This document shows, piece after piece, positions 19,206 to 57,900 of a stretch of DNA of 64,000 nucleotides (position 1 is its first letter; every line of letters begins with the position of its first letter). Source of the stretch: Tetraselmis striata (lineage: Eukaryota > Chlorophyta > Chlorodendrophyceae > Chlorodendrales > Chlorodendraceae); NCBI GenBank assembly GCA_006384855.1, contig VCJN01000156.1:62001-126000 (forward strand). The letters run 5' to 3'. The translations under genes were made by a program, and so were the position numbers. Below the pieces are notes generated by a model that worked only from the letters and a program-made list of their open reading frames with translations, had not been told where the DNA came from and ran no database searches.

Positions 19206-19469
19206 ACACCCAAAAAGTGAAAACCGAAAAAATGTGAAGGTGTAAACTTCAATGCACCTTATTATGGGTCGCTATCGTTAATACAGTATATGAATGTATA
19301 AATAATGGTAACTGCTCATACTACCAATATCCTTATTAAATTCTATTCTATATTATGTGTACTAAATTATCTAATGCGGGTGCTACCCGCCGTTTTATAT
19401 CATGCTTACGGCTAATATATTATTCAACATTAGAAGTCGTTAAGTTCGCCCTGGGTCATCGGCAGAAGC

Positions 19470-19715
19470 CGCCCGAGCACGCGACCTCGTGCGCCAACCA
19501 CAGTCGTAGGTCCTGGCACTGAGCCATTGGGCTAAAACCATTGAGCTAAAGCCATTGAGGACGAGACCGTTGCCTCATTCCAAACCCGAAGGGCTAATGC
19601 ATCAATAACCGGGTATACTCCCGGGACACGGGCCCAGTCGATATTGCCATGAATCAAGGCCGGGAATCGATTCGGGGACCTCCTGAATAGGAGACCACCG
19701 CTCTGCCGAGCGGAA
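19470..19715 (-). other. two tRNA-like tracts, degenerate
   Basis: On the minus strand, TAGCCCAATGGCTCAGTGCC (about 19534-19515) resembles an A box. A second tract (about 19715-19650) has CCGCTCGGCAGAGCGG as a D-arm-like piece, TCTCC/GGAGG as an anticodon-stem-like piece and CGAATCGATTCC as a B-box-like piece with one extra base. Neither folds into a proper tRNA, so these are probably worn SINE heads. Confidence 0.25.
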
Positions 19716-20114
19716 AGACCGGGATTAATATCGTGACAAAAGCAAGTGATAGATGATATCATCCTATGGCCGGTAGTGGTGGGCCCCTGCCTGGGATGTT
19801 GCGCTTTCAGGTGGCATAAATAAAACCCATTGTTTGCTTACATGAATAAATGGGGACAGGGACAGGGGAGGGGGAACGGCAACATTTACCGGAGGAACCG
19901 GCACTACTTGGGCCCCAGGAGGCCAGGACAGAGGGACTGTACTTGCAACTGTCCGGAGATATGCACTTGAGTGGGGGCAACTCCGCGCAACACGCAGGGA
20001 AGCCGCTCGCTAGTTGGGAGCGAACATGACTGAACGTATATGTGACTGGCGGACGAGCTGCGCTATGGTGTCCGCGAACACCCCTATGACGTGGAGCCGA
20101 CCGAGCTGCCCCGA

Positions 20115-22090
20115 TTAAAACTTGCCGGAACTGAGCAGCTTGCGCAGCCCCTTGGGTTTCTTCTGCCCCGACTTGGCTGCAGACTTGGAAGCGGCGACAG
20201 CTGCTGTCGTCGCGTTGACGGTGATGGGCGCTGTGGCGGCGCCATCGGCATCACAGGTCTTGGCGGCCGTGGCGCGTTCTTCCTCCGCACGACGACGCCC
20301 CTCGTCGATGGACGCCGCGACCGCAAGCGCGCGCTGTCGTGCGCTCTGCGCCTCCGCGGCGGCGCGGTCAGCGCGCAACACGACGTCGCGCACGCCGAGC
20401 TGCATCGGACCGTTGGTGCGCCAGTGCTCGTCGGCGCGGCTGGCCCCGTCCTTGGCCGCGGAGCGTGCCTCCTCGGCCGCCTTGGTGGCGCGGGCGACCG
20501 ACGCGGCGTTCGCGCGGCCGTTGGCGTCGTCGGCGTGCGTCACCTCGGCCAGGCTCTGCACCCACTTGGGCTTGCTCTCGCGCCACTCGCCCGCCCACTG
20601 CTCGCCCGTCTCGATGGTGTAGATGCAGAAGCCGTGCTTCTTGCCGTGGTACCACTGGCCCTCGTACTTCTGGCCGCTCGCGAAGAGGTAGACTCCGTAG
20701 CCGTGCGGCACGTCACTCTGGTACTGCCCCATGTAGCGGTCGCCGTTGGGGAAGGAGTAGACGCCGAGGCCGTGGCGCTTGCCGCTATTGTAGTCGCCAA
20801 CGTAGTTGCTCTCGTCGGTACACTGCTGCATGCCGCGCCCGTGGCGCAGCCCCGCCTGCCACTGCCCCTCATAGTAGTCGCCGTTGTAGTAGCGGCAGAT
20901 GCCGAAGCCGCATCGCATGCCCTTAGCGTACTCGCCGTGGTAGGTGCTGCCGCGCGCAAAGGTCTCCATGCCCACGCCCTCGTACAGCGCACGCACCCAC
21001 TGGCCCTCGTAGCGCCCCTGGTTGGCGAACACATACACGCCGTAGCCCTCCATCTGGTCGTCGAAGAACTCACCCGCGTAGACGTCGCCGTTGCTGAAGC
21101 TGTAGACGCCCTCGCCCGCCTTGTGCCCTCGGAGGTAGGGGCCTTTGTAGCCGTCACCGTTGGCCAGCTTGCGGACCTCGTAGGTGACCTCCTTGAGGTC
21201 GCGGCCCTTGAGCACGCGGCTAGTGAGGTGGCCCTCCTCCGGCCGCACCTCCACCACTTCCTGGCCTCCAGCTCCGCCGCAGTCGCCAGCCTGCGCCGAC
21301 TTGCTGTAGCTGTTGGGCGTCAGCGTGGCCGCCACCACCGGCTTTGCGTCCTCCATCTGGCTCGGCACCGCCGGCAGCTGCGAAGCGTAGTCCGTCCCAG
21401 CGTCGGCCGTCTGCGGCGAGGTGTAGTCCAAGTCCGCTAGCATGCCAACCGCCTTCATGGCAGCGCTCTTGGTGGCCGCCGCTGTGAGCGCCTCCTCCTC
21501 GGCGCGCTCGTCCTCCACACGCTCCTCCACCTGCACACAACAGCTTGTCATTATACAGTTCTACAAAAAACAAAATACCAGCGGAGAGACCAAGGCAAAG
21601 GGTTGCCTACCTTGGCAACCGCCAGTGCCGCCGCCACGGCATCTGCCTCCTGCTGCCCCTCCGCGTCCAGGTCAGCGCCCACGCCAGCAGAGGCGAACGT
21701 CTTGGGAGGCCCGCCACCCACACCGCGGCTGGCAAAGCTCGGGCTGCGGGCATCGTTGCCGCCGTCCACACCGTCGGCGCTGCCCGCCTGCGCCACAGCG
21801 GTAGGTACCATCACCATCAGCGCTACAAGCCCAGCTGTCAAAACAGTGTGAATTTAAACATATTCATGTTGTACGCTCTTTAGAAACCCCAATGCAATTA
21901 GCAGCAGTCCCTAAACCACTGAAGAAATTGTAGTCATCATGCAATATTCAACCGTATGTTATCATTGCATGCTGTATACATGTATACATTCATATAAATA
22001 AAATTCAGCATCATATATACTACAAATACAAACTAAATAAGATGCTTTCGGTGTGGTTGGGTGGGAACTAAATGAGGCAACGGCTGGTTT

Positions 22091-22121
<31 letters not shown>

Positions 22122-24682
22122 GGGCAGCCAACCTGCGTGCCAGCAGTGCGGCTTAGGGCTGCGCCCACGGCGACGCTCATGCCGATCGCGGCGGCGGCCG
22201 CCGCGCCCTCACCCATGCGGCGTGGCTTGGAGCTCGCGTACTGCGTGCTGTGGTGCGCGCTGTCCTCCACCTGGTCGCTCACCATCTGGGTGGCCTCCGG
22301 CGACATGACCTTGTACACAGGCGCCGCGGCCCGCGAGCGCGGGGTCAGCGCAGCCTCTGCCTCGCCGTAGTCTCCCAGCCCGTACTTGGCCAGGCCGCCA
22401 GCGCCGCCGTGGACCATGCCACCAGAGCGCGGGGTTGTGGGCTTGCCGTCAGCGCCGTGAAGTGCCGAGACAATGTTGTCGGGATCGTCGCCCTTGAAGG
22501 GCACATGGAAGCGCGGCTTGTCGGGGTCTTCCGGGAAGTTGCGCAGCTGCGCCAGCCAATCCTCCGTGTCCTTGTACGCGCCGTTGTTGATGCTGCCCAC
22601 GTAACCCATAGTGTCTGGCTTGACAGTGATACGGAAGGGCGGGCGGGCGTTACCGCCATCGCTCGCCAGTGCCTCGCGCGCCTATGCAATTGCAGCAACG
22701 TGATTCAGTATAACTACCCACAGCGATGGCAGGGGAAAATGGCAAATACTGGATTGGCAGAGAGGCTTGGGGTGTAAAGGGGTGTAAAGATGTGGGGTGC
22801 AGACCTGCGCGAGGATCGAGTCCGCATGGTGGCACTGCGCCTCCGCTGCAATGAGCGAGGCCTTGTGCAGCGGCGCCAAGCTGGTCTGCGCGGCGCCCAC
22901 GGCGCGTAGCGCCTGGTCCAGCTGCCGGGTGTCCATCTGCTTGCCCTCGCCTGCTGCCTGCTTGGCAGCAGCCAGTGAGGCGAGCGCGCCCTCCGGGATG
23001 GGGAAGAACTTCTCTGCCTTGTCCACCTCTTCGCAGAGCTCCTCAAACAGCGCTTGCGCACCCTGACACAAAAAAGTAAAATGGTGCGGGGATCAGAACA
23101 TCAGCTGACTCTCCCCTTTGTTGCTATTGAAATACCATCATATTTCATCGTTAAAAACACTGGCGGTGTATCATTAGTGCTGAGGTGTGTGTCGGTGACA
23201 AATGAAATGGGCATTACATTGTGCTGAGTGCTGTGCGCCCGACTCTCACCTGCAGCTCTTTCTGGAGGTTCTCCAGGCGCCTGGCGCGAGTGCGGCCGCC
23301 CATGCCACCAGAGTTCATGCTGTTGAGATGGAGGTCACGCAGAAGCACCCAGGTGTGCTGCACCAGCGTCTGCATCACGTCGCGCCGGCTGCGGAGCTTG
23401 CCACGGTGCGTGTAGCCGTCGTGCGTCTCGCTACCGACCTGGCCGAGCAGGCGCTTAAGTCCGGGCAGGCTGCGCAGCAGCACGGTCACTGCCTGCTGCG
23501 CGGCGTCGTCCGCCACCTGGGCAAGCAGCAGGAGGGGCGGGCACCAAGTCAGCGTGGCGTAACGCTTGAAGCCACCAGACATAACAATACTCGTAATAAC
23601 AAGCTGTGAAGGAAATTGGCCTAGACAATGAGGTGGAAAATCAATACAGGAATAGTAAAAATTGCGACTTTGTATTAGAGAACAAGGTAAAAAGTAATTG
23701 AACTCCACACCAGAACTGTCAAGCGATTGATGGGAGTGCAGAATCATATCGATCGACACACCCACCCTCCCCTCTCTTGGGCAGACTCTGCGAGTCACGC
23801 AGGCAAGCTTACCTGCGCAGTTGCGGGGTCGAGCACAAAGCCGTCAGGCCCAACCTCCGCGTCGCCAGCAGGCGCCGGCGAGGACTCCATGCCACTCTCC
23901 GACGGCGAAGCGGCCGCGCGGCTCTTGTTGGCTGACCCCATCGGGCGGGCCTGCCCGCCAGATACGCCTGGGTTCTGGGCAGTCTTGTGCCTGGCAGATG
24001 CGGGGCGGCCCGGGGACGTAGGCATGGCCTCCTGGGAGGCGGTGCGGCGGGAGGCAGGCCGCACGCGGGGCTCGACATCGGCTGCAGCTCGCGGGCTGTT
24101 GACAGCGGCAGCCCGGGGGGTGGGCTTGTTGGGGATGTACTTGTGGCGGGTGTCGCAGTCCTTCACCTCGCCATTGGGCTCCAGCAGGCCGCTGTCATGC
24201 TGCCGGCTGAGCGGCGTGTTGTAGCCACCCACGGGGTTGAGGGGCTTGACGGTCGAGTGCGGCAGCGGCAGCTCCGCCAGGTTGCCGCCGCGGCTGGCAG
24301 AGCGACGCTCACGTGCCGTGTAGCCTGCAGACTTGCCGGTACGGCGGCAGTAGTAGTACAGCCACTGCAGGAACTCCAGGTTCTCTGAGGGGTGGCCCTT
24401 GATGAGGCGCTCCACGTCGATGTTCTTGTCCACCTCCATCTTGTTCAGCCCGATCTGCAGCTGCTTGTAGTTGGTCACGAACTCGTAGTCAAAAACGGCG
24501 GCGAAGTTGACCTTGGCCATGTTGAGCTTGCCGGTGTGGTATGCGTCAAAGAGCTGACAGTACACCGCGCCGCTTGCAAATTGCTCTAGCCGCGTGAGCT
24601 GCAGCTCCAGCAAACGATTCGCCCACTCCAGCAGCTCATTCTTCGGCACTGTGTATGCATGCTCCCCCACGGACGACGCCAT
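20115..24682 (-). CDS. EB1-type CH domain / MORN-repeat fusion protein
   Basis: Six exons on the minus strand: 24682-23813, 23516-23250, 23062-22805, 22681-22133, 21787-21611, 21530-20115. Every junction is GT-AG, every intron is phase 0, and all exon lengths are multiples of three. The product is about 1178 aa. Residues about 5-115 form an EB1-family calponin-homology domain (L-L-E-W-A-N, I/L-E-Q-F-A-S-G-A-V-Y-C-Q-L, N-L-E-F-L-Q-W), the microtubule plus-end-binding module. The middle is helical and low-complexity. Residues about 775-980 carry eight to nine 23-residue MORN repeats (Y-x-G-x-W/Y, then G-x-G-x-Y-x-F-x-N-G-D), and a Lys-rich end follows. I see no canonical EB1 C-terminal dimerisation motif. 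A membrane- or flagellum-associated microtubule linker is a reasonable inference. The ATG at 24682 is the first in the exon. A two-gene reading is possible, but no intervening stop, start or promoter was found. Confidence 0.85.
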
Positions 24683-24699
24683 GCCGGCCCACAATTTAA

Positions 24700-26093
24700 A
24701 GGAGGCTATTTAATAGTGGGGTGTTTAGAAATTGGGTGTTGGTTGTTTGGGTGTCAGGCCCTGTGGAAAAGAGAGGGTACAGCGTTTCTCTGTCAGAGCT
24801 CCAGCGGTATAGACAGCCACAGTTGTGCCAGCGCCTACGCGTAATGTCTCACACCAATATCCCCAATATCCCCCCAGAGTCTGCCCTAAGGCGGCACCTT
24901 TCAGCCTGAATCATTGCCTCCATCCGCTATCTCCCTCGGAAAAGCCAGCTAAAGCTGGGTTCGAAGCAGTTGGGTGTCAAAAAATTGACCCACCCCAACA
25001 CCATCTGGTGGCGCGCCGCCCTGCCGGTGGTAACTACTCAATCGTGCTCAGCTGTACACCAGTGCTCACAAGGCCACAAGGCAATCCGTGCGTGGCGACT
25101 GCGCAGCCCGGCGCGGAAACACGCCCTACTGTACCGGCACCGGTAAGGTGCACGGGGTATGGTACCGCACGAACTGGCTCGGTTTTGGTGCGCAGTAGGT
25201 ACCGGTGGCATCGCCAGGGACCCGCTTAGCGACTAATTATCTCCGCGGAAACAAATCTAGTGACGAGTGAAAATTTGTATCAGGTACGGTAGGTCGTTAG
25301 CAGTTTGTAATGGTCCAGTAGCGCTAATCCTGCTTGATACATGAGGATCATCGCAGTTTGTAATCGTGGGGACTTCTACGAGCACAGTAAATTCATTATT
25401 CGCTGCACCCGCAAGGCGAGTAAAGTCGCACGATAACGATAAAGATGAACCCCCCCCCCCCCCCCCCCCCGCTGGCCAGAACCTGGCGGCTGATAACTTC
25501 GCAGCACGTGCGTGGTTATTCCAATCGGAGGAGCAGGCAAAAGCGAGATAGACATATCGAATGCATCCCAGGCATGCAGAGGTCAGTAGGCGACCGACAT
25601 CGCCTACCCACCAAAATCGACTGACCCACCGACATCGGCTCGCGAACTCGTACCCGTACGACAAGGCCCATATCTGCCCGCGCCGCTGCCGCGATATAAG
25701 CCCATACAATGTGCTGTTGTGCACCCTTCGAGTGCGGCGGTTGTCGGGGTTTAATTAATTGCAAGTTAGGGCGACGACCCGCTGCCGACGCCTGCCGCAG
25801 CTGTGCGCGCTGGGAAGGGAGGTCCGGGGTGGTAGTGTGAGTGGGAGCGAAACGGCATGCCTGCGGAATATCTACAGGCTGGCATGCAATCATCAACCTA
25901 AGCTCGTGGCAGATGGTTCCCGGCTGGTCGGCTGGGAGGACTCCGTTCTTTCGTGTGTTCCCCAGACTCAGCGACGCGGGCACGCAAGCCGGCCCGACCC
26001 AAACCCCAACCCCCCCGAGGCTTATAGCCAAGATTGCCGTCCATATGTTTTCCTGACCAGGGGCTCGGACTTGTGCGCTAGTATCAGATTTCT

Positions 26094-26132
<39 letters not shown>

Positions 26133-26840
26133 CTTCGTGTCGGCGATAGGCGGGTGGCGCGGCTGCGCGCTTGCGACTTTCGCCCGTCCGCCGAGCTGTT
26201 CGGTGCTCACGTCCCCCCGGCCAAGCCAACGCCCCCGCAGCACTAGACTCAAGCTGCGCCAACGCAAAATCATAAGCGAGCGTCTCACCTCCCGGCAGTC
26301 ATCCAGGCTCCGGTCCGGCAAGCGCTGCGGCGCACACGGGCTCCCTCCCGCTTGGTCGGTTAAGCTGCGGATGGTGCGGTTGGCGGAGGGCGCCGCACAA
26401 GCAAAGATGTGTGGTGCCACACGCGCAACGCCCACCCGCTCTATCGCTAACACAGAAAGGGGGACCCAGTAGCGTTCAGAAGGCCGCAAAGTGGACCTCG
26501 CTATTGTCTGCCCGGGGCCGACGGGGAGCGGGCGAGGATGGCGGATGGTGTGGTTGGTGGCCGCGCCACAGGCAACTGTCCTCGACGGTTGAACCCCGCG
26601 TCAGCCTACTGGCAGTTACGGGCGTCCGTCACTCTCGGTCGATCGGTCGGGATGAGATTCGCTCATTCCGCGAATAGCGACTAAGGATTAGCGACCACCA
26701 GTAATCCTTACATCAATATCACGATAAAGCAGAAGCGCGGAGCGGAGGCTACGAAATCATCTGTCTCCCATATTTACTTTTGTACTTTTACCTGGTACTT
26801 CGGCGGATTTCATCGGAAGGATACATGCTGACTTTCTCGC
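24700..26840. other. intergenic, no supported gene
   Basis: The first 150-200 bases lie upstream of the EB1/MORN gene and would hold its promoter. Beyond that are a poly(C) run (about 25449-25470) and a poly(G) run of about 37 nt (26096-26132). Long minus-strand frames here (e.g. 25516-26262) exist only because poly(G) is read as poly-Pro. Confidence 0.45.
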
Positions 26841-26848
26841 ACTGACGA

Positions 26849-38483: not shown

Positions 38484-39280
38484 CTATGGGATGTACTGCA
38501 CCGCCTTCATCTTCTTCTCCACCTCCGCGTACGCCTCCGCAAACTCGGCGTCCTCCTCCGCCTTCCCCTTGAGCGGCTTGGGCAGCAGCAGCATCACGCT
38601 CGTCGGCCGCTTGGTCTGCCCGGCGGCGCCCAACTCCTGCAGGCACAGCCGGGGGAGCTGTCTCTTAGGGGGGGGCGGGGGGGGCGAGTGCAGGCAGGGG
38701 AGGGCAGCGAGTGTGTTTCGAGAGGATAAGGGGAAGCAGGGGGAGGGGCTCTCACCTCCTTGGAGTCGATGTACACGTAGGGCACGTCCCTGTCCTCGCA
38801 CATGATGGGGAGGGGCGTGATGACGTCGATGGGGGAGATGTCGCCCGCGATGATGCACAATCTGCGTGCGTACAGAAGCAAAGGGGGCACAGCCGGTGAG
38901 CATGCTGTGCACAGAGGGCAGGCGGCATGCTGTGGACACTGGCCAGCTTCAGGTCCTCTTGCAGCCCCTCTGTGGTAAGGGGTGACCATCAACATAACAT
39001 AGGCTCCGCTACTGATAGCAGAAAACCCCGAGGAATTCACTGGGGTTCTGGAGTGCGGGGAGATGGAAAACTGCTCGTACCCCTTCACGTTTTTCCGCAG
39101 CGCCTTCACGACCTCCTTGACCCCCCGCTTCACCTGCTTCTTCTTCGCCGCCTTCTTCGCCAGCTTGAGCACCTTCTTCTTCAACTTGTCGTCCGCCAGC
39201 GGCTGCGCGATGGCGCACATCTTCTTCGCGGCGGCCGGAGCGTCCTCGCTGGCCTCCGCCCCCTTCTTTGACTTGCCCAT
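38484..39280 (-). CDS. NHP2: H/ACA ribonucleoprotein complex subunit 2 (NHP2)
   Basis: Core protein of H/ACA snoRNPs, which direct rRNA pseudouridylation in the nucleolus; it belongs to the L7Ae kink-turn-binding family. Three exons: 39280-39081, 38861-38756, 38636-38484; 152 aa, the usual NHP2 length. Introns are GT-AG (phase 2, then phase 0). A Lys-rich N-terminus leads into I-A-Q-P-L-A, K-R-G-V-K-E-V-V-K-A-L-R-K (RNA-contact helix), C-I-I-A-G-D-I-S-P-I-D-V, L-P-I-M-C-E-D-R-D-V-P-Y-V-Y-I and L-G-A-A-G-Q-T-K-R-P-T. The order of blocks and the R-G-V-K-E/C-E-D signature distinguish NHP2 from other L7Ae proteins such as SNU13. The 3' end faces the capping-protein gene, with 644 bp between the two stops. 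Start: first ATG in frame, at 39280. Confidence 0.94.
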
Positions 39281-39289
39281 TTCTGCGAC

Positions 39290-39980
39290 GCCCCGAATCT
39301 CCCAGCTATAGCCTGCCGCCAAGACTGAGTACGCAGCTGCCCGGCAAGGGCGGCGGCAGCTACGTCGACGCGGCTGTCTAGGCTGTCGACTCGACGGGCC
39401 CGGCGGCGGCGGTGTCGAACCTGATGGATCGGTGGCGAGGCTGAGGCTGTGACTGGACACAGCAGATGACTAGGACTCGGGTGCCCGCTAGCGAGATATA
39501 GTGGGACGGTAGGGAGAGGGCAGCGCTGGTGGCAAACGGTCTGTCCAGTGGCTCACGCGCATGCACGGGCGAAAAGGCGGAAACCAGGCCGCACCGTTGG
39601 ACGCCGGCCTTGATGGCGGTGCTGCTGCGCCGCCGCGCCGCCGCGCGACGAGGCCAGGGACAGAATAACGGGGATGATTGTTTTTCCGCCCCCGGGACAG
39701 GACTGGCACCAGTGAAACCCTTGCGTGCAGCGTCTTTACGACGGCCGTTTCGGCAGCAATCCAGTTACGGAAAGCCCTGGGTAGGCGACGCTCCGTTGTA
39801 GTCAAGCACGTTGCAGAAGGATTCTGCAAGACTAATTGAGGTCCAATGACGGAATTTCCAACACTGTTGGATCACCGTCTAAAACACTGCAATCAAAAAT
39901 ACCCGGCACTGACCACGAAAGGTCCGCCCTACCCGTTGGGCGTCCGCCCATTCGAGTAATGCGAGTTGGGGCAAGCCCCA
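39290..39980. other. no supported gene
   Basis: Upstream region of NHP2, with GC-rich, GGCGGC-type sequence near 39400. Minus frame 39488-39829 and plus frame 39529-39801 are unrecognised. I see no repeat structure. Confidence 0.35.
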
Positions 39981-55500: not shown

Positions 55501-57033
55501 ACGGCTTGGCCGGGTAGGTGTGGAGGGGGGGGGGGGGGGGGGGGTGGCGGGGGGCAGGCAGCCTCGGGGTGTGCTTGGCGCACCTGCTCGATGGTGTGCT
55601 CAAAGGCCATGCGGTTGAAGAGGGGCGCCTCCTGCAGGCGGCTGAGCGCCTCCGTGGCCGCCAGCGTGTCGCTCGCGGGTAGCAGCTCCTGCGCGCGGAA
55701 AGCGCCGCACGGCTGGCGCAGCACGCGCACCGCCTGCCCGATGAACTTGACTGTCTCCGCGACCGGCAAGCTCACGCCAGGCGGCAGGTTCTCCACGCAC
55801 ACCTGCGCCGCCGCCGCCAAGCAAGCCGCCATGAAGCCCCCCCCCCCCCCTCCCGACCCGCCTCTCCCTAAATACACACACACACCACCACCACCACCAG
55901 GGGAAGCATAGGCTACGACTGCCAGCCCCGGACCTGGAAGCCATGATGCCACTCCACCATGAGGCCGTCCGCCGGGTCCGCCCCCAGCGCCATGTCGGGC
56001 TGCGACGTGGGCGTGGCGGCGTCTGCGCCCTCGGGGGCCCCCGGCGGCGGCGGCGGCTCGGCGCGCTGGATAAAGAACTCGCCGAGCGGGTCCTGCAGCA
56101 GGCCGTGCAGCAGCCACGCGCCTAGCTGCCGGTACATTACCTGCGCACGGCAGGCAGGCAATGCCTGCTGCGTTAGGGACTCGAGACCTGGGACACAGCA
56201 ATCAGTTGAAGCTGACAGGTGAGCCCTTTCAAAAAGGAGCATCTGGAGCAATCCTGAGGCAAATGTGTTGGCCTCGCAAGCTGAGAACTGAGCACCATAC
56301 ATGAAAACAATCGCGGATATGTCTTTTCACTATTGGGGCAAGCGGGGCAACGGGAGGGAGTCATGGAGGAAGGTGCAGGGGGGGGGGGGGGGGGGGGGGT
56401 TCTCCACCGCCATCCTCGCGGCCCCACCTGGTTGGTGTGCCACAGCAGACGCTGCAGGCAGGCCTGCAGGCCAGGCACGCCGCATGCAGCCTTGGTGGCC
56501 AATAGCGCCAGCAGCTGCACGCCGCCCAGCCCCTTGGCCGCGACATCATAGGCGAGGAAGTGCAGCGGGCCCAGAATGGGGCCGAACTCGGCGGCGAAGC
56601 GCTGCAGCGCCGACAGCGGCGGCGCCGCCTCGCTGCGCACGTACTGCTCCAGGCGCAGCACCCCCGAGCGGTACACCTCCAGTACCTCCGCCAGCCCGGC
56701 GGCGAAGGCGCGCCGGTAGGCGCTTGCGCCCGCGCGGCTGGGGTCGCGCTCGTGGCGCACAAGGCGGTCCAGCTCGCGGTAGTGGCCGCCAAGCGCCGCG
56801 ACGGCGTTCAGCACTGACCGGTCGGGTGGCGCCACCCACGCCAGGTCCTCCGCCAGCTGGATGCCGCTGTCCCAGGGGCTGCGCACCGCGTGGCCGCCGG
56901 CCGTCTCCTCTGCCGGCGCCGCCGCGTCCACGAACACGTCGCCCACCTTGCCCAGCAGCGCCAGCAGCAGCTCGTGCAGGACGTTGCGGTACGCCGCCGA
57001 GCCACCGCCGTCGCTCTCCGCCGCGCGCCCCAT
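51191..57033 (-). CDS. TUBGCP4: gamma-tubulin complex component 4 (GCP4)
   Basis: Subunit of the gamma-tubulin ring complex that nucleates microtubules. Nine exons on the minus strand: 57033-56428, 56140-55934, 55802-55584, 55356-55276, 54340-54165, 53200-53140, 53042-52917, 52235-about 51937, 51415-51191. The total is close to 666 aa, matching GCP4 size. Landmarks are V-L-H-E-L-L-L-A-L-L-G at the N-terminus, V-M-Y-R-Q-L-G-A-W-L-L-H-G-L-L, D-Y-F-L-L-A-R-G-D-F, V-A-W-P-L-G-M-L-L-T-P-E-L-L-K-S-Y-N, L-W-R-L-R-Q-F-M and a final F-L-L-R-L-N-Y-N-S-Y. Short length and lack of an N-terminal extension favour GCP4 over GCP2/3. Exon 8 has an apparent one-base loss near 52147 that shifts the frame before L-Q-L-D-V-I-E. 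The exon 5/6 junction is ambiguous (acceptor 53201 or 53215), as is the exon 8 donor (51936 or 51897). Five introns carry sense-strand poly(C); intron 2 carries poly(G). Confidence 0.9.
52529..52561 (+). repeat. (AG)n microsatellite in GCP4 intron 7
   Basis: Sixteen AG units, read as (CT)n in the transcript; it lies between exons 7 and 8 of the GCP4 gene. Confidence 0.97.
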
Positions 57034-57900
57034 GTCGCCCGCCCCCACCTGCTGCTCCCCTTTCTACTCACCCACCCTCGTTGGGGTGCTTGACCCAACC
57101 CAGGGTCGGCACTCGGCAGTGTCTTTGAGGAGCCTCTCTTCAGTTGGAGCCCAGGTTACTGCGGGTAGCGGTAGGCAGTCGCTCTTGACGATGGGCCCGG
57201 ATGATTGGGGTTGACGGAGACGAAGGAGTTGCTGACCACCACGCGGAGCGCCCACCACCGATGAGCGCGCCGTGCTGATGGGGTCGGTTACATGGGAAAG
57301 AGTCGGGTGAAGGGAAAGTGCTGCCGCTGCTCCTGAGCGCGCCGTGCTGCTGCTCCTGATGCGTCGTCAACTCTCGTCGCCATCTGAATTCAAAAACGCG
57401 GACCAGCAATAGCATCACATGCAGGAAAAGGTCTAGCGACTATATTTCGCCGACCTCGCCTCGGAGCTGAGGTCAGAGGCGGCGAAATTGGCGTTTTTGG
57501 AAGGGGCGGCACGGCCGCACGAGTCGCGCGCTCCCCTCTTAGCAAGCGGTAGTGTTTAGTTAAAAAATTACCTAATTATTCCACGCCTACGGGTACCGAT
57601 AGCTGCTTCGCCGGCCAAGCCAGCTGTGCAAGAGTTGCCCTACAACGGGCAACAAGAGCAGGAGCGACGGAAGAGGCAGATCAAGCGACACCAGGTCAGG
57701 GTGTAGTAGGCCGCAGGGGACGAAGGAAACTCGGCTATCCCACTACAAATGATTAGAGTTTGAAAGATCCGGCTCAGTTCCGGCTTTTTAATCGCCGAGA
57801 TATCGACAAGACTACCGTCTCGTCTCTACCCGTTCTTGCACCTCGCACCCTGCCCACCCGCATCATGGCTCCCAGCCCGAGTCGCCCGACAGAAACCTCC
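57034..57900. other. upstream region of GCP4, no supported gene
   Basis: Would contain the GCP4 promoter and 5' UTR. CGCGCCGTGCTG recurs at 57268 and 57338. An imperfect inverted pair (TTTCGCCG at 57446 / CGGCGAAA at 57480) lies near 57460. I recognise nothing else. Confidence 0.35.

Follow-up and report, generated by a model that had tools for sequence, protein, structure and literature searches.

The analysed window is a 64,000-nucleotide stretch (G000:C123:62001-126000) of a 224 Mb assembly comprising 2903 contigs. A predicted gene occupies positions 24682-20115 of its minus strand, with the ATG at 24682 and a TAA ending at 20115. It consists of six exons (24682-23813, 23516-23250, 23062-22805, 22681-22133, 21787-21611, and 21530-20115) of 870, 267, 258, 549, 177, and 1416 nt, every one divisible by 3. 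When joined across the GT-AG introns, the exons remain in phase 0 throughout and encode 1178 residues with one terminal stop and no internal stop. A sequence-only reading of this DNA had proposed such a six-exon, stop-free, phase-0 join, and our analysis confirmed it with exact coordinates. The open frame of exon 1 starts at 24709, 27 bases ahead of the ATG.

All features described below lie on the minus strand. Exon 1 (23813-24682, residues 1-290) contains the start codon, an EB-type CH domain (24344-24646, residues 13-113), and a basic linker. Exons 2 (23250-23516), 3 (22805-23062), and 4 (22133-22681) encode linker of no known family, and exon 5 (21611-21787) adds a further short linker. 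Exon 6 (20115-21530) encodes a MORN array, a C-terminal tail, and the stop codon. Within it are eight MORN repeats (20565-21116, residues 846-1029), a predicted helical region of two long helices (20241-20549, residues 1035-1137), and a basic C-terminal tail (20118-20174, residues 1160-1178). The motif TGTAA, a polyadenylation signal in Chlamydomonas, occurs at 19838-19842, approximately 270 nt past the stop, as a possible signal for this gene; a second TGTAA lies inside intron 2, at 23218. In the Pfam search of the spliced protein, CH and MORN were the only families above their cut-offs. The third match, MUCL1, fell below its threshold (17.2 bits versus 35). The exon 2 linker had no Pfam match up to an E-value of 1, exons 2-5 combined had no credible PDB match (best E 0.56), and NCBIfam returned no match for exon 1 or exon 6.

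The coding character of each exon was assessed with a codon score. Its training set comprised the algal EB1, two matches each to chlorophyll a/b-binding proteins and to RSP3, and part of the window's GCP exon. The predicted frame scored positive in all six exons (+0.54, +0.72, +0.67, +0.63, +0.71, and +0.73 for exons 1 to 6), and the other two forward frames were negative. Exons 2, 3, and 5 additionally had one positive reverse frame (+0.22 to +0.39), always under the predicted frame. All five introns were negative in all six frames (-0.71 to -1.48). Omitting the RSP3 pieces from the training set gave +0.57 to +0.77 for the exons and -0.60 to -1.27 for the introns, which left the conclusion unchanged. 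In addition, GC3 was 0.78-0.89 in the exons versus 0.35-0.51 in the introns. The uniformity of the codon scores indicates that the four domain-less linking exons look as coding as the two domain-bearing exons. One mRNA probably runs across all six exons. The gene model is real and unusual, and it is very probably that of a single gene.

A second contig, C792, carries the same gene model, with the same frame, splice sites, and exon order. The two contigs differ at 6 of 3537 exon bases, one of these differences being in exon 4, and all six are synonymous, including one transversion. Such an all-silent pattern would arise by chance with a probability of about 2e-4 when every change is equally likely, or 1.5e-3 when transitions alone are considered. 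We regard this pattern as weak evidence for constraint. The contrast between exon and intron divergence was rejected as a proof of constraint, because the introns are as similar between the contigs as the exons are: introns 1, 2, 3, and 5 are identical, and the five introns together show 1 mismatch and a 2-nt gap. The gap is in intron 4, near whose start a long C tract is followed by an A tract (22088-22124). Since exon content and order are unchanged on C792, the second copy is good evidence against an assembly chimera, and we consider a chimera unlikely. When C792 was aligned to positions 7577-32169 of the window, the identity was approximately 91-93% in the outer stretches and 97.9% over 19420-26841. 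The raised identity around the gene may reflect recent gene conversion or partial haplotype collapse.

We next turn to the N-terminal domain. The CH domain scored 33.2 bits in Pfam (cut-off 26), and its best PDB match was human EB1 (E 1.5e-24). At E <= 0.001 the PDB search matched 13 distinct sequences, every one of them EB1, EB3, Bim1, or Mal3. These results bear out the earlier assignment to the EB1 type, and the EB ancestry of the predicted domain is clear. An alignment of the fusion, the algal EB1, human EB1, and Mal3 contained 25 invariant columns. The identity of the CH domain to the algal EB1 was 50% in one alignment and 44.4% over 144 columns in another, and its identity to human EB1 was 43.6% over 94 residues. 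According to the excerpted text of Maurer et al. 2012 (PMC3368265), Mal3 Y56, K63, K76, and Q89 were mutated; Q89 was important for tip sensing, and changes there either increased binding to the lattice or compromised tip tracking. Three of these four residues are kept in the fusion, as Y66, K73, and K86. At the first of these positions, human EB1 carries H. The position of Q89 is occupied by S99 in the fusion, L in the algal EB1, and Q in human EB1. Human EB1 K59, K66, and K100 correspond to A, V, and H in the fusion. The fusion's CH domain carries a net charge of -3, compared with +1 for the algal EB1, +5 for human EB1, and +2 for Mal3, and the linker after it carries +9.

The algal EB1 used for comparison is a separate, canonical gene on contig C640, which encodes 278 residues with CH and EBH domains. 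The only EBH (PF03271) match in the genome is in this protein. No Pfam EBH match was obtained in the fusion up to an E-value of 1, in agreement with the earlier reading, which set the fusion apart from EB1 proteins with their C-terminal dimerisation domain. Because the EBH domain is missing, the predicted fusion is an EB-like CH protein rather than a standard EB1. EB1 also has a C-terminal EEY/F motif. This motif is missing both in the fusion, which ends in LLSSGKF, and in the C640 EB1, which ends in GEGAVM, and it does not discriminate here. The CH domain of the C640 EB1 is interrupted by introns after codons 35, 58, and 87, and that of the fusion is encoded in one exon without an intron, which would fit an old intron-free or a retroposed origin. 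Among the best eight candidates, apart from the genes on C123, C792, and C640, only C1527 (E 0.19) and C1251 (E 3.6) gave EB-type matches, both of them weak.

The genome encodes chlorophyll a/b-binding proteins and radial spoke protein 3 (RSP3). It therefore looks like that of a photosynthetic eukaryote with axonemal genes, and the algal context fits. Many of the chlorophyll a/b-binding matches (PF00504) share one score across several contigs, with four on C1767 (for example, C1767:222840-280606), which may reflect recent gene duplication or assembly redundancy. Three other open frames were recorded on the minus strand of the window. The frame at 56176-57063 encodes a gamma-tubulin complex component N-terminal domain and places another microtubule gene approximately 31 kb from the fusion. 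The frame at 197-2095 contains a response regulator receiver domain and then a guanylate/adenylate cyclase catalytic domain, and that at 38597-39469 encodes a piece of a ribosomal L7Ae/L30e-family protein.

The MORN array scored 121.6 bits in 8 stretches in Pfam (cut-off 22.5), and the best PDB match of the MORN exon was MORN1 (E 2.4e-45). Register mapping placed eight full repeats in a strict 23-residue register, with a mean mutual identity of 32%. The sequence-only reading had counted about nine; eight are full repeats, and the ninth is only a partial repeat, YKGPY at residue 835, before the array. The repeats show a GxG start, a conserved aromatic strand, and YxGxW-like motifs, with GFC in place of GxG in the eighth and no glycine at position 10 in the fifth. 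The helices that follow the array were predicted by a poor single-sequence AlphaFold2 model of exon 6, in which pLDDT was approximately 60-72 in the middle of residues 1035-1137 and below 50 at both ends, against a whole-model mean of 42.7. At the C-terminus, which reads GLRKLLSSGKF, 7 of the last 20 residues are K or R. The genome has at least 31 MORN matches on 12 contigs, C123 and C792 among these. Ten contigs besides C123 and C792 thus bear MORN matches, and for four of them stretches of 1.8-2.8 kb around these matches were compared with the array. An origin of the array as a recent copy of another MORN gene was rejected, given its identity of only about 27-46% to these four sets of stretches. 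No EB CH domain was found in them apart from a single 7-residue match (E 0.83).

Given the joined frame, the presence of both domains, the lack of a recognisable EBH, and the existence of a separate canonical EB1, we propose that one gene may produce a 1178-residue microtubule-associated scaffold. The EB-type CH domain would bind the microtubule, perhaps favouring the growing end, aided by the basic linker. The EBH tail of EB1 binds SxIP-containing plus-end proteins (PMC12695022, in excerpt). In the excerpt of Sajko et al. 2020 (PMC7725318), three MORN1 structures dimerise through their C-termini, and MORN repeats are characterised as protein-protein interaction modules. The most parsimonious view is that, in place of EBH, the MORN part provides both dimerisation and partner binding. 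The array, possibly together with the helices after it, would stand in for the missing EBH by pairing two chains and recruiting partners. Microtubules would thereby be linked to a protein scaffold at the flagellar base, the axoneme, or the cell cortex. We hold this reading, with the CH domain on the microtubule and MORN replacing EBH, to be somewhat better than an even bet; a single transcript, microtubule binding, MORN dimerisation, and the cellular place of the fusion are its inferred elements. Plus-end tracking would be a possible property of the predicted protein, but both the net acidic CH domain and the serine at the tip-sensing glutamine speak against it. The A, V, and H found where human EB1 has K59, K66, and K100 likewise weigh against the proposed reading.

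The same two features favour the main rival, in which the fusion binds the microtubule lattice or the axoneme instead of growing ends and is a structural flagellar or cortical protein. The Mal3 changes at Q89 cited above (PMC3368265, in excerpt) point in this direction, as do several PDB matches of the MORN exon that are flagellar by name (FAP266 and flagellar radial spoke protein 1). The quoted part of PMC7999657 places FAP266 in the central apparatus, and RSP3 is present in the genome. However, the canonical algal EB1 has L at the Q89 position, so this position alone is not decisive, and the CH domain matched EB proteins and no other PDB CH protein at E <= 0.001. We consider this rival doubtful but worth serious attention. 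It overlaps in part with the scaffold reading, as both accept a fused scaffold.

Another explanation is that two adjacent genes lie at the locus. The first, EB-like, would end within the middle exons or beyond them, and the second, encoding the MORN part, would begin inside exon 6 or immediately ahead of it; the fusion would then be an artefact on paper. The TGTAA in intron 2 could be read in this way, and in-frame internal ATG codons in exon 6 could allow a separate MORN protein to begin there. Against this, all six exons share one joined phase-0 frame that is open and coding throughout, the splice sites are preserved on two contigs, and exons 2-5, which link the two parts, would have to be assigned elsewhere. 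Two separate genes are therefore quite improbable. The tethering of microtubule ends to membranes suggested by the sequence-only reading, for which the MORN repeats or the basic tail would contact the membrane, was not supported and appears improbable: the tail and the matches of the MORN exon to junctophilins, which join the plasma membrane to internal membranes (PMC8934682, in excerpt), would favour it, but CH and MORN are the only Pfam families above cut-off, the idea rests on the name of the repeat, and the excerpted account of PMC7725318 found that T. brucei MORN1 did not bind membranes either in vivo or in vitro. A membrane contact through the basic C-terminal tail itself is possible.

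We thus favour the fused scaffold. An extension of it, which we advance very tentatively and rate as rather unlikely, is that green flagellates possess an additional class of EB protein, whose MORN array took over the EBH role and pairs two CH domains. A MORN-based network would then replace the SxIP-based one, and microtubule ends or lattices would be plugged directly into a MORN scaffold. If an EB-type CH domain works with MORN instead of EBH, this would reveal a further means by which microtubule-binding domains are paired and loaded. If true, it would also offer a direct test of MORN repeats as assembly modules versus membrane anchors.

The sequence-only reading had assigned this architecture to no standard family. 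Consistent with that, no description of an EB-type CH and MORN fusion was found in the open-access literature, among the matches listed and in the excerpts that these provide; the fusion may be catalogued somewhere as an automatic domain architecture. Pattern searches gave 9 and 138 matches in IMG/VR and, for relatives with the CH part, 34 in GTDB genomes, none confirmed, and phage records contained no relative; these viral and prokaryotic collections say little on algae.

Finally, we compared the fusion with known systems. It shares the N-terminal EB-type CH domain and the basic linker with the EB1/MAPRE proteins (EB1, EB3, Bim1, Mal3, and the C640 EB1). It differs from them in having a MORN array and no EBH, in its length of 1178 residues versus 278 for the C640 EB1, and in its one-exon CH domain versus the intron-cut CH domain of the latter. 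Like MORN1-type proteins, it has 23-residue repeats that follow one another directly and carry GxG and YxGxW-like motifs. T. brucei MORN1 consists solely of MORN repeats in the excerpt of PMC7725318, whereas in the fusion a long linker and, before it, the EB-type CH domain precede the repeats. The flagellar MORN proteins FAP266/RSPH10B and RSP1 match the MORN repeats of the fusion (E 4.8e-26 and 2.8e-18, respectively), but neither is among the PDB sequences matching its EB-type CH exon. Kinesin-MORN (PDB 9y6s, chain 9y6s_8a), known here from its molecule name alone, would by that name join a microtubule-binding domain and MORN in one chain, with a motor domain where the fusion has the EB-type CH domain. 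Kinesins with MORN in photosynthetic eukaryotes also appear as an abbreviation in a figure legend, the part of PMC1434745 cited here. Kinesin-MORN suggests a precedent for joining a microtubule-binding domain to MORN, and the gene described here, as predicted, combines two known domains in a new arrangement.
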